From assembly GCF_019264445.1 (NCBI RefSeq), contig NZ_JAHVAB010000043.1, forward strand, positions 1-64,000: a DNA stretch of 64,000 bases. The letters run 5' to 3'. The position numbers and the translations under genes were made by a program. The notes under the pieces were generated by a model that was not told the DNA's origin, ran no database searches, and saw only the letters and a program-made list of their open reading frames with translations. The DNA comes from Hydrogenophaga sp. (GTDB lineage Bacteria; Pseudomonadota; Gammaproteobacteria; Burkholderiales; Burkholderiaceae_C). Below are positions 5,723 through 26,565 of the stretch, piece after piece. Positions within the stretch are counted from its first letter, which is position 1. The number at the start of each line of letters is the position of its first letter.

Positions 5723-7651
<1,929 letters not shown>

Positions 7652-7987
7652 GTTCGTCCATGCACCATCCGGTGCAATTGATCGAATGCAAACGCTAAAG
7701 GGACAGCCGACCTGAAAAGGTGGCAGCTCCGGGGCGTCGAATCCGTTCGTGGTTACAAAACATCAACCATCAAACGATCGACGCGCCATGGGTCACAGGG
7801 GAGAACGTGACGCCGGGAGCGAAGGCCCCATCCGCTGCGGCGGTTGAAACGTCTGGGGAGACATTGCAACCACCGGGTGTTCCGGGAGGCCTGGTGTGTG
7901 AGGCAGATGCACAAATCATCGCAGTTGCCTGCGAAGCCCGCTATTATGGCACAGATTCAGGGAAAACCCTGAATCTTGTTTCAACGC
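7652..7987 (-). other. Non-coding leader between helicase and pit
   Basis: 336 bp without a convincing gene. A plus-strand open frame of 91 codons (7720-7995) shows no recognisable domain and overlaps the end of pit, so I discount it. On the minus strand a perfect hairpin (GCACC-ATCC-GGTGC, 7662-7675) sits just upstream of the helicase ATG, within reach of its ribosome-binding region. A CATAAT hexamer at about 7943-7948 (minus) could be a -10 element, but no matching -35 is clear. A long leader is known for some cold-inducible helicases; that regulation here is inference. Confidence 0.45.
7954..7975. terminator. Hairpin, probable pit terminator
   Basis: Perfect 9-bp stem GATTCAGGG / CCCTGAATC with a 4-base A/T loop, just beyond the pit stop codon at 7988. 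The better U-tail (TTGTTT) is on the plus strand, while pit is on the minus strand where the tail is weak (TGTGCC). The role as a pit terminator is therefore likely by position but not by tail. Confidence 0.55.
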
Positions 7988-9574
7988 TCAGTTGAGCACC
8001 GCGCGCACCACGTAGAAAAGCACCGCGGCCAGCACAGCGGTGGCGGGCACCGTGACGATCCAGGCGGCCACGATGCGCATGACCACGGACCGCTTCACGA
8101 TTTCCTTTTTGTACGCCTTCTTGAACGCCTTCTGTTCCTTCTTGGCGAACACCGCGCCCTCGGCCGCCTCGCGCTGCTTGGCGCGGCGCTTCATGTCGGC
8201 CAGCATGCGCTTCTTCTCACTCACCTCGGCTGCCTCGAAACGGTTGAGGTATGCCTCAACCTCGTCGCGATCGGCTCCCTGGTGGCCCGTGCGCACAACC
8301 GACTCCATCTTGGCGTAGTTCACCTTGAGCAGCTCGCGCAGGAAGCCCACACCAAACACGGCGCCAATGGAAATGTGCGTGGTGGACACCGGCATGCCCA
8401 GCTGCGATGCGACGATCACGGTGAGCGTGGCCGACATGGCAATGGCATACGCCCGCATGTTGTCCAGCTCGGTGATTTCCTTGCCCACGGTCTTGATCAG
8501 CCGCGCGCCATACAGCGCCAGCCCCACCGCCAGGCCAAGCGCCCCCAGCACCATGATCCACATCGGCGTGCCGGCCTTGGTGGCGATGGCCCCTTCCTTG
8601 ACCGCTTCGTAAATCGCGGCCAGTGGCCCGATGGCGTTGGCCACGTCGTTCGCCCCGTGGGCAAAGCTCAGCAGCGCGGCCGAGCAGATCAGCGGCCAGG
8701 TGAACAGGCGGTTCACACCGCTCTTGCTGTTGTCCTGGCGACGCGCCATGGCGGCAATCGGCTTGCGGATCAGCGCCCACACCACCACGGCCAGCAGGGC
8801 GCCCGCCACCAGCGCAACGACAAATCCCACCTTGACCAACTGGCCCAGCCCCTTGAGCAGCATGTACGTGGTGTAGGCCCAGACCATCACGGCAATCAGG
8901 ATGGGCACCACGCGGCTGGCGGCATCGATCATGTCGCTGCGGTAAGTCACGCTGCGTTTGATGATGTAGAGGAAGGCCGCGGCCATCGCGCCGCCCGCCA
9001 GCGGCGAAATCACCCAGCTGATCACGATCTGGCCAATGGTCCCCCAGTTGACGAGGCCCCAGCCCCCGGCCGCAATGCCAGCGCCCATGACGGCACCGAT
9101 GATGGAGTGCGTGGTGGACACCGGCGCCCCGAGCGCGGTGGCCAGGTTCAGCCAGAGCGCACCGGCCAGCAACGCAGAAAACATGACCCAGGCAAACAGC
9201 GCGGGGTCGGTGATCGCGTCGGCGTCGATGATGCCGCCTTTGATGGTGCCCACCACATCGCCACCCGCAACGATGGCGCCCAGCGCCTCGAACAAGGCCG
9301 CGATCGCGATGGCCCAACCCATCGTCATGGCCCCCGAGCCGACCGCCGGGCCCATGTTGTTGGCCACGTCGTTGGCGCCGATGTTCATGGCCATGTAGGC
9401 CCCCACCGCTGCCGCCACGATCAGCAGCCACACCGCCGACGAGCTCAGCCCCGCTGCGGAAGCCCCCGTGAGCGAGGCATAGACGCCGACCAGCAGGAGG
9501 AACAACACGGCGGCGCCCAGCTGGAACACCTCCTGGTGCTTCGAAACGAAGCGCGAGCGGGATTTTTTTGTCAT
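7988..9574 (-). CDS. pit: Inorganic phosphate transporter, PiT family
   Basis: Inner-membrane low-affinity phosphate (metal-phosphate) symporter of 528 residues. The duplicated PiT signature is clear: GANDVANNMGPAVGSGAM in the N-terminal half (residue ~66) and GANDVANAIGPLAA in the second half, with the paired APVSTTHSIIGAVMGAG and MPVSTTHISIGAVFGVG segments. Numerous hydrophobic helices are present. A highly charged, Lys/Glu/Ala-rich cytoplasmic loop of about 90 residues lies before the last membrane segment. No DUF47/PhoU-like partner gene is adjacent, although many pit genes have one. A possible PhoB half-site pair lies upstream. Confidence 0.93.
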   Translation of the reverse strand: MTKKSRSRFVSKHQEVFQLGAAVLFLLLVGVYASLTGASAAGLSSSAVWLLIVAAAVGAYMAMNIGANDVANNMGPAVGSGAMTMGWAIAIAALFEALGAIVAGGDVVGTIKGGIIDADAITDPALFAWVMFSALLAGALWLNLATALGAPVSTTHSIIGAVMGAGIAAGGWGLVNWGTIGQIVISWVISPLAGGAMAAAFLYIIKRSVTYRSDMIDAASRVVPILIAVMVWAYTTYMLLKGLGQLVKVGFVVALVAGALLAVVVWALIRKPIAAMARRQDNSKSGVNRLFTWPLICSAALLSFAHGANDVANAIGPLAAIYEAVKEGAIATKAGTPMWIMVLGALGLAVGLALYGARLIKTVGKEITELDNMRAYAIAMSATLTVIVASQLGMPVSTTHISIGAVFGVGFLRELLKVNYAKMESVVRTGHQGADRDEVEAYLNRFEAAEVSEKKRMLADMKRRAKQREAAEGAVFAKKEQKAFKKAYKKEIVKRSVVMRIVAAWIVTVPATAVLAAVLFYVVRAVLN

Positions 9575-9589
9575 GCGAATCTCATGTGA

Positions 9590-9607
9590 ACGTCACAATT
9601 TTGACAT
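9590..9607 (-). promoter_or_regulatory. Possible PhoB box upstream of pit
   Basis: Read on the minus strand, ATGTCAA-AATT-GTGACGT resembles two 7-bp PHO half-sites with a 4-bp AT spacer (consensus half CTGTCAT). The first half matches at five positions and the second at four. It lies 16 bp upstream of the pit start codon. The match is weak and could be chance. Confidence 0.25.
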
Positions 9608-9669
9608 GCGGCCAGGCGCCCTTCATCCGGCGCAACGCCCTCCAGGCAAGCCGCAGGTGGCCTGTCTAC

Positions 9670-10272
9670 TCAGCGCAGGAAGTGCGTGCGGTAGTGCTCG
9701 AGCTCGTCGATGGACTCGTGCACATCGGCCAGCGCCGTGTGCTTCTGGTGCTTCTTGAAAGACTCATACACCTCGGGGCGCCAGCGCTTGGCAAGCTCCT
9801 TGAGCGTGCTCACGTCCAGGCAGCGGTAGTGAAAGTAAGCCTCCAGCTTGGGCATGTACTTCACCAGAAAACGGCGGTCCTGGCTGATGGTGTTGCCGCA
9901 CATGGGCGAGCCGTTCTTGGGCACGTACTTCCCGATGAACGCCAGGAGCGTGGCCTCGGCCTCCGCTTCGCTAACCGAGCTGGCCTTGACCTTGTCGATC
10001 AGCCCGCTGCGACCATGCGTGCCCTTGTTCCAGGCGTCCATGGCGCCCAGCACGGCGTCGCTCTGGTGCACCACGATCACGGGGCCTTCGACGCGCGGCG
10101 TGAGCTGAGGGCCGGTGATCACCACGGCAATCTCCAGCAACCGCTCTTTCTCAGGGTCGAGCCCGCTCATCTCGCAGTCGATCCAGACCAGGTTCTGGTC
10201 GCTCTTGGTCAGGGTGGGGGTTTCGGCGAGGGTCGCCGGGGCCGTCGCGGCCGCTGGGGTAGCTGAAGTCAT
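9670..10272 (-). CDS. orn: Oligoribonuclease
   Basis: 3'-5' exoribonuclease that degrades di- to oligo-ribonucleotides, including linear pGpG from cyclic di-GMP. The 200-residue protein has the DEDDh exonuclease pattern: [20 protein letters not shown] near the start (Asp and Glu of Exo I), [11 protein letters not shown] (Exo II Asp), and [14 protein letters not shown] near the end (His and Asp of Exo III). I chose the ATG at 10272; the frame is open 20 codons further upstream, but that extension is unlike the family. It is divergent from the M48 protease gene, with 83 bp between them. Confidence 0.93.
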
Positions 10273-18025: not shown

Positions 18026-18982
18026 TCAGTGAATCCATGACATGAGGGTCATGGTCGCGCTCAGCGTGACCAGGGCCAGCAAGGTCGACAGGCCCATGCT
18101 CGCGGTGGTCACTTCCTGTGCGACCTCATAGCGCTGGGCAAACAGGAACACGTTGGCGCCAATGGGCAGGGCCGCCGCGACCACCATCACGGTCAGCGGC
18201 AGGCCGGTGATGCCCATCGCCCATGCGCTCAGGCCCACCAGCACCGGCAGCACCAGGTTCTTGGAGACGCTGATCCACAGCGCCTGCCGCAGATGGCCGG
18301 CCATCGGCGTGCGCGCCAGCGTCACACCCACGAGCACCAGCGCGATCGGGCCGAATGCACTGCCCAGCAACTGCAGCGGCTTGTCCACCACGGTGGGCAG
18401 CGTCCACCCGGTTTGTGCGAACAGCAGACCACTCAGGATGGGCAGCGGAATCGGGTGGATGAGCGCACCTTTGAAGGCCGACCACGCCGTGGACAGCACA
18501 TGCGGCACCCGCTGGCCGCCCGCACGCGCCTCACGGGCCACGGCGAGTTCAAGGACGATGGAGCCCAGCGTCAGGAGGATCAGCGCATGCACCGACACCA
18601 GTGTGAGCAAGGTCACCTGCCCTTCCTTGCCGTAGGCGAGCTCCACCAGCGTGATGCCGATCATCACCATGTTGGAGAAGGTCCCGGCCAGCGCCATCAC
18701 CACGCTGCCGCAGTTGAACCCGCGCCAGGCGATCGACGCCGCCAGCAAGGACAACGCGGCCAGAAAGTAGGCGCCGAGCGGGCGCAGGTCCAGCGTCTCG
18801 AAATGCACCGAACTCATGGTGCGAAACAGCAGCGCCGGGATCAGCAGCAGGAAGACGAGGTTGGAAAGGTCCTTGATCGCGGCATCGCGGATCCACTCCA
18901 GCCGACCGGCCAGGTAGCCCAGACCGATCAGGATGAAGACAGGGGTGAGGGAGGCGACGACGGGGTTGGCTGCAATGTTCAC
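18026..18982 (-). CDS. AEC family transporter
   Basis: 318-residue integral membrane carrier of the auxin efflux carrier (AEC) family. There are about ten hydrophobic segments; the N-terminal half begins VASLTPVFILIGLGYLAGR and includes NLVFLLLIPALLF. The second half contains GSAFGPIALVLVGVTL and the conserved-type ALPIGANVFLFAQRY. Substrates in bacteria are typically small organic anions; none can be assigned here. The start is GTG at 18982. It follows the DUF3299 gene by 28 bp on the same strand, so it may be at the end of the zinc-locus transcript, though its link to zinc is unproven. Confidence 0.83.
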   Translation of the reverse strand: MNIAANPVVASLTPVFILIGLGYLAGRLEWIRDAAIKDLSNLVFLLLIPALLFRTMSSVHFETLDLRPLGAYFLAALSLLAASIAWRGFNCGSVVMALAGTFSNMVMIGITLVELAYGKEGQVTLLTLVSVHALILLTLGSIVLELAVAREARAGGQRVPHVLSTAWSAFKGALIHPIPLPILSGLLFAQTGWTLPTVVDKPLQLLGSAFGPIALVLVGVTLARTPMAGHLRQALWISVSKNLVLPVLVGLSAWAMGITGLPLTVMVVAAALPIGANVFLFAQRYEVAQEVTTASMGLSTLLALVTLSATMTLMSWIH

Positions 18983-19010: not shown

Positions 19011-19598
19011 CTACTCGACGCCTACCGCGCTCGTGATCCGGTAATACAGGCCGTACGGATCGTTCTGCAACACATGGAACGTGCCCTCGACCACGACCGC
19101 TTCCAGCTTGTACTTCACCGGTTTGGCGGTGCGCACCTCCACCATGCTTTCGGGCCCGCCCGGGGTACAGAAGCTGCACGTCATCGGCACCGACGCCAGC
19201 AGGAAATGGCGCTGGCTCTCCCCCGGCTCCAGCGGCATCATGAAACCCTGCAGGCGCACTTTTTTCTGGTTCAGCCCGGCCACCGGCGCCGGGTACACCG
19301 GCACGATGCGCTTGTTGTCCACCTTGGTGGTGATGTCGGTGAGCAATGACCAGGCCACCACGTCCTCGCGCTTGGGCAGCGGAGCAAAGGGACTCAGGGG
19401 GCTGTGCACACCCGCACCCTGACCGCTTGGCACACCGGGGTGTGGCGGCGCCGAAGCGCCCGCAGGCACGGGCGAACTCAGGGTGGGCTGCGACCACGCC
19501 GGGCACGCCACCGATACGGCCACCAGAGCGCCCAGAGCCACCCGGACGGTGCATGCGCCGCGACGGGCCACGAATGTGAAGAGCTGGGGTGGGGTCAT
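19011..19598 (-). CDS. DUF3299 domain periplasmic protein
   Basis: 195-residue exported protein of unknown function. An N-terminal hydrophobic signal ends near ACPAWSQ. A Pro/Ala/Gly-rich linker leads to the DUF3299 domain: VVAWSLLTDI, KVRLQGFMMPLE, HFLLASVPMTCSFCTPGGPESMVEV and LQNDPYGLYYRITSA. The CSFC pair is conserved in the family and could bind metal or form a disulfide. From memory, a DUF3299 gene belongs to a Zur-controlled ABC operon in Pseudomonas aeruginosa (PA4063-PA4066), which fits its place here. The ATG at 19598 is used; a TTG at 19613 overlapping the previous stop is an alternative. Confidence 0.8.
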   Translation of the reverse strand: MTPPQLFTFVARRGACTVRVALGALVAVSVACPAWSQPTLSSPVPAGASAPPHPGVPSGQGAGVHSPLSPFAPLPKREDVVAWSLLTDITTKVDNKRIVPVYPAPVAGLNQKKVRLQGFMMPLEPGESQRHFLLASVPMTCSFCTPGGPESMVEVRTAKPVKYKLEAVVVEGTFHVLQNDPYGLYYRITSAVGVE

Positions 19599-19609
19599 GG
19601 TGTGTGGAG

Positions 19610-19852
19610 TCAATGGGCGTGGCGCATGCCGCAGTATTTGCCCAAGGCCAGACCCTTGCAGGCCACCGAGAGTTCCTGCATGCAGACTTTCTCGCCCTTG
19701 CCGGCTTCAAGACATTTGGCCGCGCCTTCGTGTGCGGCGGCCATGGCGCGGTGGCGCGCGGCGTCTTCCTTGATTTCCTTGTCGGAATGCTGGGCGAGCG
19801 CGGCGGTGGACAGCAGCGCGGCGGTCAGGAGAAGGACGAGTGGTTTTTTCAT
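19610..19852 (-). CDS. Small Cys-rich periplasmic protein, unknown function
   Basis: 80-residue protein with a clear Sec signal peptide (MKKPLVLLLTAALLSTAALA, cleavage before QHSD). The mature part of about 60 residues has four cysteines (KCLEAG, KVCMQE, VACKGL, KYCGM) and several histidines, including a C-terminal MRHAH. That pattern suits either two disulfides or metal binding. I do not recognise a named family. It sits 5 bases after the ABC permease stop, inside the Zur-like operon, at the place where the P. aeruginosa operon has a different small His-rich protein, so a role in periplasmic zinc handling is a reasonable guess only. The ATG at 19852 gives the signal peptide; the open frame extends upstream without one. 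Confidence 0.75.
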   Translation of the reverse strand: MKKPLVLLLTAALLSTAALAQHSDKEIKEDAARHRAMAAAHEGAAKCLEAGKGEKVCMQELSVACKGLALGKYCGMRHAH

Positions 19853-19857
19853 GGCAT

Positions 19858-21081
19858 TTACCTTGAGTTGAGAAGTTGAGTGACGTCGATGCGGTAAGCG
19901 TTGATGGCCGGCAGGAGCGCCGCCACCACCGCCACCCCGAAGGCCAGCACGGGCACCCAGGCTTCCCCGGGCACCCACTGCCAGCCGGCAATGGCCAGCG
20001 AATGGCGGGCGATCAAAAAGTCACCGGCCACTGCCGTGAGGGCGTGCGCCGCCAGCAGGCCCAGCACGCAGGCCAGCGCGGCCAGCCAGAGTGCCTCGCA
20101 CAGCAGCAGCGCGGCCACGCGCGCGGGCGGCGCGCCCAGCATGCGCAACATGGCAAGGTCTGCGCGCCGTTCGCGCACCGCACTCCACAGCGCGATGAAC
20201 ACCGACAGCCCGGCCACCACCACGAGCACAGCGGCGAGCGCGCGCAGCACCTGCGTGCCGACACCCACCATGTTCAGCAGCCGGGTGATTTCCACCGCAG
20301 GCGCGGCCGCCTGCATCGAGGTGCCCTGGTTGACAAAGCGCGGGAAACTCACGGCCGCCAGCGGCGAGCGGTAGCGGATGAGGGCCAGCGTGATTTCGCG
20401 GTCTTCGGCCAGCGCTTCTTCGAGCTCGGCGCGTTCGTCCTCGCTCATGCTGGCGCCCGCGTGCATGTCGTCGTGCACGCGCCAGACGGATTCGGTGGCG
20501 GTCAACACCAAGCGGTCGAGCACGCAGCCGCAAGGTGCCAGCACACCAGTGACGCTGTAGGGCGTGTCGCCGTGCACCGCCCCACCCGCGCCCAGACCAT
20601 GCGCGCCCTCAAACCGTTGGCCCACTTGCAGCCCCGTGCGCTGCGCCACCTGCGCCCCGAGCACCGCCTCCAGCGGCGCCTGCCACAGCACACCCTGCGC
20701 GAGCGTCGCGCCGTAGTGCGCCGGGTACGCGTGCGTGGTGCCAACGATGCGAAAGCCGCCCAGGTTGTCGCCCAGGCTCAGGGGAATCAGTTGCGCGACC
20801 TGCGGGGTTTTTTCAAGCTCGCGCACCTCGGACAGCGGAATGTTCCCGGGCGGCACATCGAGGTGGAACACACCGGCCAGGATCAGCTGCATCGGGCTGC
20901 CCTTGGCCCCCACCACCGCGTCGATGCCGGCCAGGTCTCGCTCGAAGGCGCGGTCGACCTGGTCGCGCGCGATCAGCAAAAACGCCATCGACGCCAGGCC
21001 CAACGCGAGCAACAGCAGGTTGAGCGCGGTGGTCAAGGGGCGCGACCACAGGTAGCGCCAGGACAGCGAGAACACGTTCAT
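19858..21081 (-). CDS. ABC transporter permease, FtsX/MacB/LolC type
   Basis: 407-residue inner-membrane permease. It has one N-terminal membrane segment (TTALNLLLLALGLASMAFLL), a periplasmic domain of about 220 residues, and three C-terminal segments (LAAVLVVVAGLSVFIALW, CEALWLAALACVLGLLAAHAL, VLAFGVAVVAALLPAINAYR). This is the FtsX topology of mechanotransmission-type ABC systems, not an importer fold. A CGC pair in the periplasmic domain (APCGCVLDR) is notable. The start overlaps the ATPase stop by four bases (ATGA). It probably works with the adjacent ATPase in envelope extraction or export connected to zinc starvation; the substrate is unknown. Confidence 0.87.
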   Translation of the reverse strand: MNVFSLSWRYLWSRPLTTALNLLLLALGLASMAFLLIARDQVDRAFERDLAGIDAVVGAKGSPMQLILAGVFHLDVPPGNIPLSEVRELEKTPQVAQLIPLSLGDNLGGFRIVGTTHAYPAHYGATLAQGVLWQAPLEAVLGAQVAQRTGLQVGQRFEGAHGLGAGGAVHGDTPYSVTGVLAPCGCVLDRLVLTATESVWRVHDDMHAGASMSEDERAELEEALAEDREITLALIRYRSPLAAVSFPRFVNQGTSMQAAAPAVEITRLLNMVGVGTQVLRALAAVLVVVAGLSVFIALWSAVRERRADLAMLRMLGAPPARVAALLLCEALWLAALACVLGLLAAHALTAVAGDFLIARHSLAIAGWQWVPGEAWVPVLAFGVAVVAALLPAINAYRIDVTQLLNSR

Positions 21082-21737
21082 GCCGCCGACCTCGCCGACA
21101 AGGCTTCAAACACCAGCGCCTGCGCGTGCGGCAGCGCCTGGCACACGCGCGCATCGTGTGTGGCCATCACCAGCGTGGCTTCGAGCGTGTCGGCGGTCTG
21201 GCGCAACAGCGCCAGCGCATTCGCGCAGGTGTCGTCATCAAGGCTGGCCGTGGGCTCGTCCGCCAGGATCACTTTCGGGCGCAGCAGCACGGCACGCGCC
21301 AGCGCCGCGCGCTGGGCCTGCCCGCCCGACAGCTGCGATGGGCGGCGCCGGGCCAGCTCCTTGAGACCCAGGGTATCGAGCGTGCGCGCCAGCGCGGCCT
21401 GGTCCACCGGAAGGCCGGCTGCGTAGAAAGCCAGCGCGAGGTTGTCGGCCACCGTCAGCGCTTCGCTCAAGTGCAGCCGCTGTGGCAAAAAACCGATGTG
21501 CCGCGCCCGCCAGGCGTCGCGCGCGGCGCCGCCCAGGGCGCCCACCGACTGCCCCGCCACCACGATCTCACCCGCCGAAGGCGTGAGCAGCCCGGCGGCC
21601 AGCGCCAGCCAGGTCGACTTGCCGCTGCCCGAGGGGCCGCGCAGCAGCAGCGTGCCGCCCTGGGCCACGTCCACGTCGGGAAGCGAGAACGGATCGCTGC
21701 CCGGGTAGGCACAGCGCAGGCCACGCGACTCGATCAC
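21078..21737 (-). CDS. ABC transporter ATP-binding protein, LolD/MacB type
   Basis: 219-residue ATPase with Walker A GPSGSGKST, Q-loop (FLPQRLHL), signature LSGGQAQR, Walker B VILADEPTASLD and switch His (ATHDARV). ADEPTASLD is the form common to LolD/MacB/FtsE-like proteins. The start is GTG at 21737, whose GTGA overlaps the stop of the zur-like gene by four bases, which fixes it well; the upstream open frame (to 21899) is antisense-like and spurious. It partners the FtsX-type permease immediately downstream. Confidence 0.9.
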   Translation of the reverse strand: MIESRGLRCAYPGSDPFSLPDVDVAQGGTLLLRGPSGSGKSTWLALAAGLLTPSAGEIVVAGQSVGALGGAARDAWRARHIGFLPQRLHLSEALTVADNLALAFYAAGLPVDQAALARTLDTLGLKELARRRPSQLSGGQAQRAALARAVLLRPKVILADEPTASLDDDTCANALALLRQTADTLEATLVMATHDARVCQALPHAQALVFEALSARSAA

Positions 21738-22234
21738 GAAGCCGCCTCGACACAGCCCGCGCAGGTGCCATGCACCGATACGTCCACCCGCGCACCCTGG
21801 TGGCCCAGGCGGGCCAGCGAGCTGAACAGGTCTTGCGCCATCGCCCGCGTGGGCTCGCTCGCGTCGGTCAGGCGGAACTGCCGGTGACAGGCATCGCACT
21901 CGAAGCGCGGCAGCGCGCCCTCGTCTTCACCGCTCGCTTCCCGGGGTGCCAGGTTGAAGCGCCAGGTGCGCGCCTGGTCGTCGGTATGGCGTTGCAGCAC
22001 GCCGCAAGCGGCCAGGCGATCGAGCAGCCGGTAGAGGGTGACGCGGTTGATGTCCAGCCCGCGCGCCGTCAGCGCCTGGAGCGCCTGGGCATGCGTGAGC
22101 CCGCCCGGAGGCTGCGCCAGGAAGAGGCCCAACACGGCGCGCGTGGCCAGGGTGCGGCGCAAGCCGGCGGCTTCCAGGCGCGTCTGGATGTGGGGCGGCA
22201 CAGTGGCGGTTTCTCGGGGAGCTCGGGTGACCAT
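21734..22234 (-). CDS. zur: Fur-family transcriptional regulator, Zur-like
   Basis: 166-residue Fur-superfamily repressor. An N-terminal winged helix (RRTLATRAVLGLFL, INRVTLYRLLDRLAACGVLQRH) is followed by a metal-binding dimerisation domain with two CxxC pairs, CDACHRQF and CAGC, for the structural zinc. Assignment as Zur rests on context: it is divergent from znuCBA and heads an operon resembling a known Zur-controlled one. The ATG at 22234 is preferred over one two codons upstream because AGAGG lies seven bases before it. Autoregulation is likely, since its promoter overlaps the operator pair. Confidence 0.87.
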   Translation of the reverse strand: MVTRAPRETATVPPHIQTRLEAAGLRRTLATRAVLGLFLAQPPGGLTHAQALQALTARGLDINRVTLYRLLDRLAACGVLQRHTDDQARTWRFNLAPREASGEDEGALPRFECDACHRQFRLTDASEPTRAMAQDLFSSLARLGHQGARVDVSVHGTCAGCVEAAS

Positions 22235-22250
22235 GGGCATGCCTCTGCAT

Positions 22251-22303
22251 TATTGCAACTTGGTTGCGTTAATATGCGGCTATCGCAATTGAGTTGCAAT
22301 ATC
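22251..22303. promoter_or_regulatory. Paired Zur-type operators between zur and znuC
   Basis: Two dyads: GCAAC-TTG-GTTGC at 22255-22267 (perfect) and GCAAT-TGA-GTTGC at 22285-22297 (imperfect). Extended, the first reads TATTGCAACTTGGTTGCG and the reverse complement of the second reads TATTGCAACTCAATTGCG, so the sites are near-identical and inverted. Their centres are 30 bp apart, about three helical turns, placing both on the same face of DNA. The position in a divergent zur/znu region makes Zur binding the natural inference. Confidence 0.75.
22271..22299 (-). promoter_or_regulatory. Predicted promoter of the zur operon
   Basis: On the minus strand, TTGCAA (22299-22294) and CATATT (22276-22271) are separated by exactly 17 bp. 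The -35 hexamer lies within the right operator, and the left operator covers the expected transcription start, so a bound repressor would block this promoter. No comparable plus-strand promoter for znuC could be identified by eye. Confidence 0.5.
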
Positions 22304-22314
22304 TTAGTCCCAAC

Positions 22315-23099
22315 GTGTTTTCACCCGATAGCCGCCCGCCCTCTGCACGCCCCATCGTCCTTCGAGACTTGACCCTAGGGTACGAACGGCACCCCGCCGT
22401 GCACCACCTGTCGCTGGTCGTGGCGGCGGGCTCGCTCGTGGCGGTGGTCGGCCCCAACGGCGCCGGCAAGTCCACCTTGATCAAAGCCCTGGCGGGCCGG
22501 CTCGACCCCATTGGCGGCTGGATCGAGGGGCTCGATCCGCACCGCGTGGCCTGGCTCGCGCAGCACGCGGGCATTGACCGCAGCTTCCCGATCTCGGTGC
22601 GCGACTTCGTGATGCTCGGCCTGTGGCACCAGGTGCGCGCGCTCGGGCGCCACACCGCCGCACACCGGCAGGCCTGCCACAGCGCACTGGCCGAGGTGGG
22701 GCTGCTGGGTTTTGAGCGGCGCGGCATCGACTCGCTGTCAGGAGGCCAGTGGCAGCGCGCCCTGTTCGCCCGGCTGATCCTGCAAGACGCCCCCGTGGTG
22801 CTGCTCGACGAACCTTTCGCCGCCGTCGACCAGCGCACCACCAACGATTTGCTGGCCTTGCTGCACCGCTGGGTGGCCGGGGGCAAAACGGTGGTGGCCG
22901 TGTTGCACGATCTGGCCCAGGTGCGCGCGCACTTTCCGCAGACGCTGCTGCTGGCCCGCGAGCCCATCGCCTGGGGCGCCACCGCCGACGTGCTCACGCC
23001 GGCCAACTGGCAGCGCGCCCTGCACATGCAGGAGCCCTTTGACGACGGTGCAGAGGTGTGTCACGCAGCCCCCAGGCTGCACGCGCACGGAGCCACCGC

Positions 23100-23103
<4 letters not shown>
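22315..23103 (+). CDS. znuC: Zinc ABC transporter ATP-binding protein
   Basis: 262-residue ATPase of the high-affinity zinc importer ZnuABC. Motifs: VLRDLTLGYERHPAVHHLSL (A-loop region), Walker A GPNGAGKST, signature LSGGQWQR, Walker B VVLLDEPFAAVD and switch His (VLHDLAQV). The start is uncertain: GTG at 22315 gives the usual length, while a TTG at 22294 would place the start codon inside the right operator. No clear Shine-Dalgarno precedes either. It overlaps znuB by four bases. Confidence 0.9.
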
Positions 23104-24960
<1,857 letters not shown>

Positions 24961-24995
24961 CGGCGGCAAGGCCTGTGTGCCACGGGGGCCGTGGC

Positions 24996-25001
24996 TATAC
25001 T
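24996..25001 (+). promoter_or_regulatory. Candidate -10 element for the DMT transporter
   Basis: TATACT, followed by a GC-rich discriminator, 29 bp upstream of the GTG start at 25030. There is no good -35 at the expected distance. It would give the transporter gene a promoter separate from znuCBA. Confidence 0.35.
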
Positions 25002-25029
25002 GCGGGCCCCTCGCCACCCGGAACACGCC

Positions 25030-25914
25030 GTGCCCCTGACCCACCTGTTGCTGGCCCTGTCGGTCGTGTTCGTCTGGGGCACCAATTTCGTGGTGATCCG
25101 CTGGGGGCTGGATGGCCTGCCACCGTTTCTTTTTGCCGCGCTGCGCTTCGCGTTCTCAGCGCTGCCCTGGCTGCTGTTGGTGCCCCGCCCCACCGCGCCC
25201 TGGCGCAAGATCGCCGCCTTCGGTGTGCTGCTGGGCGTGGGGCAATTCGGCCTGCTGTTTCTGGCCATGCGCAGCAGCATTTCGCCGGGCCTGGCCTCGC
25301 TGGTGGTGCAGCTGCAGGTGTTCTTCACCATCGGGTTGTCGTTGTGGCTCATGGGCGAGCGCGTGCGTGGCTTCCAGGTGGTGGGCCTGCTGCTGGCGCT
25401 GGCGGGCCTGGGCGTGATCGCCACGCACCTGGACGCCACCGTCACGCTGCTGGGCATGGCAATGGTGTTGAGCGCCGCCTTTTTCTGGTCGCTGGCCAAC
25501 CTGGTGGTCAAGTCGCTCGGGCCGGTGAACATGCTGCACTTCATGGTGTGGAGCAGCGTGTTCGCGGTGCCGCCGCTGCTGGCGCTGTCCTGGCTGATCG
25601 AGGGCCCGCACGCCATGGCCAGCGGCTTGCAAAACGCCAGTGGCCTGGTGTGGGCGAGCGTGCTCTGGCAGGCCGTGGGCAACACGCTGTTTGGCTATGG
25701 CGTCTGGAACTGGCTGCTGGCGCGCCACCCGGCCGCCACCGTCACGCCACTGGCGCTGCTGATCCCGGTGTTTGGCATGGGCGCCTCGGCGCTCTCGCTG
25801 GGCGAATCGCTGCCGCAGTGGAAGCTGGGGGCAGCCTCGCTGGTGCTGCTGGGGCTGGCGGTCATCGTCTGCTGGCCGCTGTGGCAATCCCGGCGGCGCC
25901 AGCCGATGCCCTGA
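25030..25914 (+). CDS. EamA/DMT family transporter
   Basis: 294-residue inner-membrane protein with ten predicted helices in two EamA repeats. The first begins LLLALSVVFVWGTNFVVIRWGL (typical W-G-x-N/S-F motif) and the second around AMVLSAAFFWSLANLVVKSLG, ending PLALLIPVFGMGASALSLGE. Related proteins (YdcZ/EamA/RhtA-like) export amino acids or metabolites. The GTG at 25030 is chosen because the upstream codons overlap the predicted -10. Substrate cannot be inferred from the neighbours. Confidence 0.85.
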   Translation: MPLTHLLLALSVVFVWGTNFVVIRWGLDGLPPFLFAALRFAFSALPWLLLVPRPTAPWRKIAAFGVLLGVGQFGLLFLAMRSSISPGLASLVVQLQVFFTIGLSLWLMGERVRGFQVVGLLLALAGLGVIATHLDATVTLLGMAMVLSAAFFWSLANLVVKSLGPVNMLHFMVWSSVFAVPPLLALSWLIEGPHAMASGLQNASGLVWASVLWQAVGNTLFGYGVWNWLLARHPAATVTPLALLIPVFGMGASALSLGESLPQWKLGAASLVLLGLAVIVCWPLWQSRRRQPMP

Positions 25915-26013
25915 CAGTTTCGCGGGGTATTTCCGCTGAGGTGAATCCAGTGCGGGGTCGCGCCGCGTATCTCCTTGCAGCCACGTTCCGGCTTCAACCC
26001 TCAAGGAGACTTC

Positions 26014-26565
26014 ATGTTCAAGCAGACCCTCAGCAAGACCGTTCTGGCCCTGGCCATCGGCACCGCCTCCCTTGGCGCTTTCGCGCAAGTCATGGTGGGC
26101 GGCGCGCCGATGCTCGCCAGCAAGGACATCATCGACAACGCCGTCAACTCCAAGGACCACACCACGCTGGTCGCCGCCGTCAAGGCCGCGGGCCTGGTCG
26201 ACACGCTCAAGGGCCCGGGCCCGTTCACGGTGTTCGCACCGACCAACGCCGCGTTTGCTGCGCTGCCTGCCGGCACGGTGGACACCCTGCTCAAGCCTGA
26301 GAACAAGGGCATGCTCACCGGCATCCTGACCTACCACGTGGTTCCCGGCAAGCTGGATGCCGCCGCCATCACCAAGCTGATTGCCGACGGCAAGGGCATG
26401 GCCTCGATGAAGACCGCCGCCGGCGGCACGCTGGTGGCCAAGGCGGCTGGCGGCAAGGTCACCGTGACGGATGAAAAAGGCGGCGTGGCCACGGTCTCCA
26501 TCGCCGACGTGTACCAGTCCAACGGCGTGATCCACGTCATCGACAAGGTGATGTTGCCGAAGTAA
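26014..26565 (+). CDS. Fasciclin (FAS1) domain exported protein
   Basis: 183-residue secreted or periplasmic protein. The signal peptide [20 protein letters not shown] ends near AFAQ. One FAS1 domain follows: [21 protein letters not shown] (H1 box), [12 protein letters not shown], and [20 protein letters not shown] (H2 box) at the C-terminus. Such proteins are implicated in adhesion or surface association; no partner is visible. The ATG at 26014 follows AAGGAG at good spacing. A terminator lies immediately downstream, so it is a single-gene unit. Confidence 0.93.

Follow-up and report, generated by a model that had tools for sequence, protein, structure and literature searches.

A Zur-led operon with a Zrg-type ABC pair and no ZrgA in Hydrogenophaga, probably a zinc-starvation envelope system

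The closest described systems are found in Vibrio and in Pseudomonas. The Vibrio zrgABCDE genes are controlled by Zur and are needed for growth in low zinc (PMC9817125, PMC9820375); ZrgA is essential in the V. cholerae Zrg system (PMC9820375), and the DUF2607 protein, ZrgD, has been reported to be lacking in two Vibrionaceae (PMC9817125). In P. aeruginosa, PA4063-PA4066 has been reported to be a zinc-regulated MacB-type exporter of pyochelin-cobalt, with permease mutants accumulating pyochelin and cobalt at an unchanged zinc content (PMC11481552). Published work on Zrg-type ABC systems points two ways, in Vibrio toward zinc acquisition, for which ZrgA is essential, and in Pseudomonas toward metallophore-metal export, and the description of PA4063-PA4066-like operons as "poorly characterised" in the initial annotation of the present locus is out of date (PMC9817125, PMC9820375, PMC11481552).

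The window, that is, the whole stretch of DNA analysed, comprises 64,000 nucleotides of a Hydrogenophaga sp. contig. Within it, a compact operon of five minus-strand genes encodes a Fur-family regulator, an ATPase, a permease of the FtsX/MacB type, a Cys/His-rich protein and a divergent DUF3299 protein; it runs divergent from an Azt/Znu-type zinc importer:

19011 to 19598, minus strand: DUF3299 protein, divergent subtype (PF11736, 31.7 bits; alignment; 4hsp match)
19610 to 19852, minus strand: small secreted Cys/His-rich protein (CysR), 80 aa (conserved in 55 aligned relatives; no family above cut-off)
19858 to 21081, minus strand: FtsX/MacB-type (type VII) permease, apparently Zrg-type, 407 aa (FtsX, MacB_PCD; profile comparison; fold match to MacB/LolCDE)
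21078 to 21737, minus strand: ABC ATPase, LolD/MacB type, GTG start (ABC_tran, 104 bits)
21734 to 22240, minus strand: divergent Zur-type Fur-family regulator, 168 aa (sub-threshold FUR match; profile of 33 relatives matches Zur/Fur structures)
22251 to 22271, no strand: 21-bp palindrome, predicted operator 1, TATTGCAACTTGGTTGCGTTA (exact motif match; kept upstream of zur in relatives)
22281 to 22301, no strand: 21-bp palindrome, predicted operator 2 (exact motif match)
22294 to 23103, plus strand: AztA/ZnuC-like ATPase of the divergent importer (AztA 210 bits, cut-off 220)
23058 to 23978, plus strand: AztB/ZnuB-like permease (ABC-3 above cut-off; AztB 261 bits, cut-off 280)
23995 to 24960, plus strand: AztC/ZnuA-like zinc-binding protein (ZnuA Pfam 289 bits; AztC 309 bits, cut-off 350)

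Start codons are our reading of the sequence. The GTG start of the ATPase shares 4 bp (GTGA) with the regulator stop, the permease start shares 4 bp (ATGA) with the ATPase stop, and the small-protein gene follows the permease after 5 bp, with the DUF3299 gene next; this layout, already described in the initial annotation, is confirmed by the coordinates. The regulator start had been placed at 22234, which is Met3, and we place the ATG at 22240. For the DUF3299 gene, 19598 is the first ATG and a TTG at 19613 is a possible alternative start. A scan for sigma-70 promoters and terminators gave no signal above chance.

As a single sequence the regulator scores 16.6 bits against Pfam FUR, below the cut-off of 23.1, and the name "zur" therefore needed further support. 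Fur-family architecture is present, in that a profile of 33 relatives aligns with 7dh7 over positions 12-157 (6.3e-9) and with 2o03 over positions 18-155 (1.4e-8). In the ranking obtained with this profile, M. tuberculosis FurB/Zur (2o03) and 7vo0/3mwm, which we take to be S. coelicolor Zur, come before all proteins named Fur; two Fur proteins precede E. coli Zur (4mtd). Designer PPR and alpha-solenoid matches, three of which ranked first, were judged to be spurious repeats. Cys115, Cys118, Cys160 and Cys163, two CxxC pairs of a predicted structural Cys4 site, are invariant in the 33-row alignment. Canonical Zur has an exchangeable zinc site with a His-rich loop. In the window's regulator the 18 residues ahead of FECxxC contain no His; 21 of the 33 rows have at least one there. 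By its sequence the sensor region appears non-canonical. Compared with FurB/Zur of M. tuberculosis and other Zur proteins, then, the regulator is alike in architecture, in its two CxxC pairs and in its placement at a zinc importer, but it differs in its sub-cut-off FUR score, its sensor region and the small number of its motif sites in the genome.

Such sites are very few: the exact motif occurs at just two places in this genome, both between zur and the importer, in a search by motif match, so that weaker sites may be missed. Two weaker operator-like matches, on contigs 63 and 82, lie beside genes with no obvious link to zinc. The first 8 bp of the znuC ORF, counted from its mechanical TTG start, fall within operator 2, and the true znuC start is therefore probably downstream. 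The consensus TGTTATANTATAACA, presumably that of the Zur box, was found with up to 3 mismatches in 2 of 40 loci (L048 and L069), and in neither case immediately upstream of the operon. The operator also differs from that of the Vibrio system, which reads TGAGTGTTATATTATAACACCCG in V. parahaemolyticus (PMC9817125) and TAWYGCAAYNNNRTTGCRWTA here.

A weight matrix was built from the 19 sites of a first set of loci, with a later score threshold of 18. The palindrome was found within 450 bp upstream in 45 of 46 zur-bearing named loci and in 0 of 34 loci lacking zur, a count that is not fully independent of the matrix, as some named loci apparently recur from the first set (L124/L067, L131/L060, L134/L057 and others). 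The single zur-bearing locus without it, L179, ends at a contig end. One zur-less locus of the first set, L066, reached 18.6, just above threshold, at a site 215 bp upstream of its small-protein gene.

Because small genes escape the codon-position filter by which neighbouring ORFs were picked, tblastn was used to count gene presence. The ATPase and permease adjoin the DUF3299 match in 37 of 39 loci from other genomes with the same type of DUF3299 protein, and in 46 of the best 80 named loci the nearest mapped gene ahead of the ATPase is zur. Loci with the zur-led operon include L111 of H. pseudoflava and L108 of H. taeniospiralis. Because the ABC pair and zur are kept to this extent, we conclude that the operon association is not due to chance. 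The adjacency of zur is common to those 46 relatives and is not peculiar to this strain, and the earlier claim of an operon that begins with a Zur-type regulator and includes an FtsX-type ABC pair and a DUF3299 gene is borne out by gene order and by the relatives. In 34 of the 80 named loci the permease is found with neither zur nor the operator; it lies behind msrA in 21 of these, and some of the 34 end at a contig end near the permease (L151, L154). Zur control is therefore not universal. New here are the conserved zur-led order with its palindrome, the lack of a ZrgA match, the grouping of the permease and the ZnuD-like receptor that accompanies the block in many relatives. A literature search, with subscription papers mostly outside its reach, found no description of a Zrg-like operon headed by zur in Comamonadaceae or Hydrogenophaga.

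A divergent znuC is present in 31 of the 46 zur loci. Of 40 loci, 18 encode a TonB receptor close to the DUF3299 gene, and 24 of the 80 named loci have one downstream; one relative's receptor was scanned, and its best NCBIfam match is ZnuD, with 271 bits. No close ZnuD-like receptor is encoded in the window's own genome, the best match having 46 bits. We considered the possibility that the regulator senses another metal (copper, cobalt or nickel) and that the block serves that metal instead. The non-canonical sensor region would fit this, as would the Met/His/Cys pattern of the small protein, which could also suit copper, but the operators are shared with a ZnuA-type importer and the scanned receptor gave just 71 bits with the copper receptor model, and we regard the proposal as improbable.

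The best NCBIfam matches of the ATPase are LolD, DevA and FtsE, each below cut-off. The permease matches Pfam FtsX (49.9 bits) and MacB_PCD (38 bits), both above cut-off. With a profile of 38 relatives of the permease, 23 ORFs beside canonical DUF3299 genes (28 loci given) score 119-223 bits and the other FtsX ORFs of its own genome at most 40 bits, the ORFs beside canonical DUF3299 genes standing in for the Vibrio and Pseudomonas sequences themselves. The permease thus appears to group with permeases beside canonical DUF3299 genes, that is, with the Zrg type. All 59 permeases aligned share three invariant His and three invariant Asp, and this set is common to ZrgA-linked permeases as well. 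His is modestly enriched among the invariant columns (3 of 22; naive P 0.014), and of 10 other ORFs of the same genome, 7 likewise have Asp at the position of Asp54.

In a fold search the permease found MacB nearest, with LolCDE and FtsEX among the structural matches. It might be suspected from this type VII fold that the block serves envelope maintenance, as a Lol-, FtsEX- or Bce-like machine merely induced in zinc shortage and with no metal substrate. The permease scores only 18.4 bits against the LolC/LolE equivalog TIGR02212, however (cut-off 362), and is far below the FtsX equivalog score too; the invariant His/Asp set shared with ZrgA-linked permeases and the ZnuD-like receptor adjoining the block in relatives also tell against such a machine, which we consider quite unlikely. 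With MacAB-TolC the permease shares its fold, but there is no MacA-type adaptor gene in the operon, and the ATPase and permease are separate genes rather than fused.

A more serious alternative is export: the ABC pair would expel a metallophore or a complex of metal and ligand, as has been proposed for PA4064-PA4065 with pyochelin-cobalt, and would thereby avert the build-up of harmful metal or ligand in zinc shortage. The nearest fold is that of an exporter, MacB, and the phenotype of the P. aeruginosa permease mutants (PMC11481552) is what would be expected; against this stand the missing adaptor gene, the zinc-dependent growth defects of Vibrio mutants (PMC9817125, PMC9820375) and the ZnuD-like receptor of many relatives, which points to uptake. 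We consider export possible but doubtful.

The DUF3299 protein scores 31.7 bits against PF11736 (cut-off 22), and its subtype profile matches 4hsp, the structure of the P. aeruginosa DUF3299 protein PA4066, at E 9.8e-4. It has CxxC where the canonical type has C-I-H-x-P-P-P-P, in an alignment whose canonical rows are family relatives and not PA4066. Weak, window-type DUF3299 proteins occur in at least 40 genomes, a lower bound, as Pfam misses part of this type: the operon is present in 5 of 11 genomes having the small protein and no Pfam match.

The small protein was found in 29 of the 40 genomes with window-type DUF3299, and its four Cys are invariant in 55 aligned relatives. It occurs without an adjoining ABC pair in 6 of the 11 genomes checked, and it may therefore not be a dedicated partner. 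Nothing in Pfam or NCBIfam matched it above cut-off, and a fold search gave no match at E 0.001 or better. A Conotoxin match (E 0.0019, below cut-off) and a PHROG match were taken as chance, and the best VIA-align result, FrmR (Z 4.9 over 50 residues), was set aside.

Among the features of Zrg systems, a permease of apparent Zrg type and a DUF3299 protein are present here and ZrgA is not: its domain (DUF2796, PF10986) has no match at E 0.001 in the genome, which is 99.98% complete. Among 150 family genomes, 23 have PF10986 above cut-off, each of them with a DUF3299 protein of the canonical type, and ZrgA and the small Cys/His protein occur together in none of the 150. The locus shares with ZrgABCDE of V. 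cholerae and V. parahaemolyticus a MacB-like permease, a separate ATPase, a DUF3299 protein, an association with Zur and a Znu-type importer alongside, but it has the small protein instead of ZrgA, and zur as its first gene. The likeness to PA4063-PA4066 that had been proposed holds in kind, as both have a two-gene MacB-type ABC system and a DUF3299 protein, in an operon that is zinc-regulated in P. aeruginosa and predicted to be so here, but this is not simply the same operon, since PA4063 (ZrgA), the first gene in P. aeruginosa, was not found and the DUF3299 protein here has CxxC.

We think it probable that the block is a ZrgA-less, Zrg-type zinc-starvation envelope operon under a local Zur. 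Zinc-loaded repressor would sit on both palindromes and shut off its own operon and the importer; when zinc is short, the two divergent operons would be expressed together, as their shared and conserved operators suggest. From family and fold, the ATPase and permease would be a type VII (MacB/Lol superfamily) machine in which ATP moves a periplasmic domain, with no ion channel, and the conserved His and Asp of that domain suggest that the periplasmic handling of zinc, or of a metal-ligand complex, may fall to the machine itself. The DUF3299 and small proteins may act as its periplasmic partners, and in many relatives a ZnuD-like receptor would bring the metal through the outer membrane. Gene order and its conservation, the motif, the families of the parts and the lack of a ZrgA match are observed; zinc as the signal, the direction of transport and the role of the small protein are points that we infer. 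More tentatively, the locus might represent a Comamonadaceae branch of the Zrg systems that does without ZrgA. The zinc site would then lie in the permease itself (His161, His170 and His203 together with conserved Asp), the small protein would be the first of a new family of periplasmic metal carriers associated with ZnuD-like receptors, and the Zur in control would have an unusual sensor site and a regulon of two operators.

The conserved His and Asp of the permease name residues to test, the regulator and its operators are a compact pair suited to bench work in Hydrogenophaga, and the small Cys/His protein is an unstudied, well conserved candidate metal carrier. In a ZrgA-less branch that keeps the ABC pair, the DUF3299 protein, the Zur-type regulator and the His/Asp set, the core machine stands apart from its presumed binding protein.

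The regulator, ABC-pair, Cys-rich and DUF3299 genes do form the five-gene block that the initial annotation had read from the sequence; all five are consecutive on the minus strand, with short gaps or 4-bp overlaps between neighbors. Sequence and domain searches give the following features, the importer being assigned by its best matches (AztA, AztB and AztC).

Features of the operon and the adjoining importer
21734-22240, minus strand, Fur-family regulator
21078-21737, minus strand, ABC ATPase
19858-21081, minus strand, FtsX/MacB-type permease
19610-19852, minus strand, small Cys/His-rich protein with an apparent signal peptide
19011-19598, minus strand, DUF3299 protein
22294-24960, divergent from the operon, AztABC/ZnuABC-type zinc importer

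The importer and regulator ORFs, as listed, lie 53 bp apart, and all three importer genes score under their equivalog cut-offs (210 bits against 220 for AztA, 261 against 280 for AztB, 309 against 350 for AztC). Directly downstream of the operon is a Mem_trans gene of the auxin-efflux-carrier type (18026-18982), which is also near the operon in many relatives. Genes for a multi-pass membrane protein and a fasciclin-domain protein (fasciclin E 5.4e-34) lie downstream of the importer (24991-26565).

A DUF3299 search found the domain in 65 of 150 genomes of the same family, in two clearly distinct groups: a strong, canonical type in 28 genomes (E 2.3e-23 to 4.9e-46) and a weak, window-like type in 40 (E 1.6e-7 to 7.3e-4), with both together in 3. 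ATPase and permease adjoin the DUF3299 gene in 37 of the 39 weak-group loci fetched, with permease identities of 45-71%. Alignment of the permease against named genomes confirmed at least 582 relatives, and among the best 80 of these, the nearest being Hydrogenophaga, the locus includes the ATPase in 77 cases, the small protein in 72 and a DUF3299 gene in 74. Genomes of the Comamonadaceae type thus share the arrangement widely, and it is not confined to the window's strain. The regulator is the next mapped gene before the ATPase in 46 of the same best 80 of at least 582 loci (31 of the 46 with a divergent znuC), and thus the neighborhood survey that had been proposed finds zur adjacency beyond this strain. 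Loci without zur (L120, L131 and L145, for example) number 34, and in 21 of them the ABC block lies behind msrA. In another genome of the window's genus (L206, about 7105-9902), the small Cys/His gene stands between msrA and a Mem_trans-type gene, and the zur-ABC-DUF3299 block is absent from that place, which is therefore variable within the genus.

Taken singly, the window's regulator falls below the Pfam FUR cut-off, while 28 of 33 relatives reach E 0.1 or better against that family, the lowest E being 7.9e-7. A profile of the 33 relatives aligns with solved Fur-family proteins over most of the regulator's length. Here 7dh7 (E 6.3e-9), FurB/Zur of M. tuberculosis (E 1.4e-8) and 7vo0/3mwm, which we take to be S. 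coelicolor Zur, rank above every protein named Fur, and E. coli Zur ranks below two of the latter. Designer PPR proteins (three top-ranked, a fourth lower) and an alpha-solenoid, also among the profile matches, were taken as chance repeats. Two CxxC pairs (four Cys) are invariant in all 33 rows; the 18 residues before FECxxC contain no His in the window regulator and at least one in 21 of the 33 rows. Elsewhere, the window's own genome has one canonical Fur-family gene (E 1.9e-44) and otherwise one match at E 0.6 only.

A 21-bp palindrome, TAWYGCAAYNNNRTTGCRWTA, stands twice between the divergent operons (22251-22271 and 22281-22301), the second copy running 8 bp into the znuC ORF as listed with its TTG start. 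Among the best 80 of at least 582 loci, the palindrome occurs within 450 bp upstream in 45 of the 46 bearing the regulator, in two or more copies in 33, and in none of the 34 lacking it; at the sole regulator-bearing exception, the contig ends. Allowing up to three mismatches adds four places in the own genome, against two for a reversed control pattern. Because the exact motif occurs there only at the two intergenic positions, the regulator would most likely have few targets besides its own operon and the zinc importer. The V. parahaemolyticus site given in PMC9817125 differs from this palindrome.

The small protein (80 aa) has an RHRAM-x3-H motif, four Cys (C-x9-C-x7-C-x8-C) and a CGMxHxH end; 14 positions, all four Cys included, are invariant across 55 aligned sequences. 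Its AlphaFold2 model, a helical hairpin after a signal helix (pLDDT 87.9), has no PDB match at E 0.001 or better. In a search of 369 genomes of the class, those listed being mostly from other families, it turned up in no others than the two belonging to the window's genus, with at most 15 candidates scored per genome. Eleven family genomes have the small protein without a Pfam DUF3299 match; the whole ABC-DUF3299 operon is present in five and absent at the small-protein place in six, three of which show the order msrA, small Cys/His protein, further small protein and TonB receptor. The small protein thus keeps company not only with the ABC pair but also with an outer-membrane receptor. In L208, L215 and L216, the further small protein (about 130-140 aa) is flanked by the small Cys/His protein and a ZnuD-like receptor; neither Pfam nor NCBIfam gives a match for a gene at the equivalent position in L033 (7573-7950).

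TonB receptors of one cluster are near the DUF3299 gene in 18 of 40 loci, and among the best 80 of at least 582, 24 have a receptor downstream and one (L128) has it upstream, 11 of these 25 being zur-led. For the single representative scanned, ZnuD was the best NCBIfam match at 271 bits (next model 112, copper receptor 71), a score that falls short of the strict ZnuD cut-off, 950. No close copy was found in the own genome (best 46 bits).

The operon had been likened to Pseudomonas PA4063-PA4066, a system then called poorly characterised. Related Zrg operons are better known than that, judging from PMC9817125, PMC11481552 and PMC9820375. There and in PMC8561739 and PMC6103462, Vibrio zrgABCDE and PA4063-PA4066 are described as Zur-controlled operons that join ZrgA (DUF2796) to an ATPase, a MacB-like permease and a DUF3299 protein, and in V. 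cholerae operon function needs ZrgA, essential in a znuA background (PMC9820375). The likeness is right in kind, as regards the ABC pair and DUF3299, but a DUF2796 search found no ZrgA in the own genome. With a profile of 38 permease relatives, 23 permease ORFs beside strong-type DUF3299 genes (28 short loci given) score 119-223 bits and other own-genome FtsX ORFs at most 40; by sequence score, the window permease groups with the former. Against PA4066 (4hsp), the DUF3299 subtype reaches E 9.8e-4; it has CxFCxPxGPE in place of the canonical CIHxPPPP. ZrgA is over cut-off in 23 of the 150 family genomes (omitting two with sub-cut-off matches only), all 23 with strong DUF3299; the small Cys/His protein is in 40, and the two occur together in none of the 150 (Fisher P 6e-4, kinship ignored). 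One family genome, G013, carries ZrgA and both DUF3299 types. Since ZrgA is a defining part of ZrgABCDE and was not found here, we file the operon as a variant of that kind rather than as a member.

The permease model (pLDDT 85.8) matches MacB (5gko, E 8.6e-17) and LolCDE, which places the permease, on its predicted fold, among the type VII transporters. In these, ATP moves periplasmic parts; they are not ion channels. Across 38 own-branch and 21 other-branch permeases, 22 columns are identical, including His161, His170, His203, Asp54, Asp105 and Asp189, a set that sits between transmembrane helices 1 and 2 in the model. In a weak alignment of ten other own-genome FtsX ORFs, these residues recur in 0, 0, 1, 7, 2 and 1, respectively. 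We read the His set as a putative metal site, retained with or without ZrgA. In our model, the machine would drive a periplasmic step on zinc or a metal-ligand complex under zinc shortage, with the DUF3299 and small Cys/His proteins as partners. The main rival is that the ABC pair exports a metallophore complex, as has been proposed for pyochelin-cobalt in Pseudomonas (PMC11481552). An operon of this kind that lacks ZrgA, is headed by Zur and has an operator of its own is a new variant, and one worth testing.
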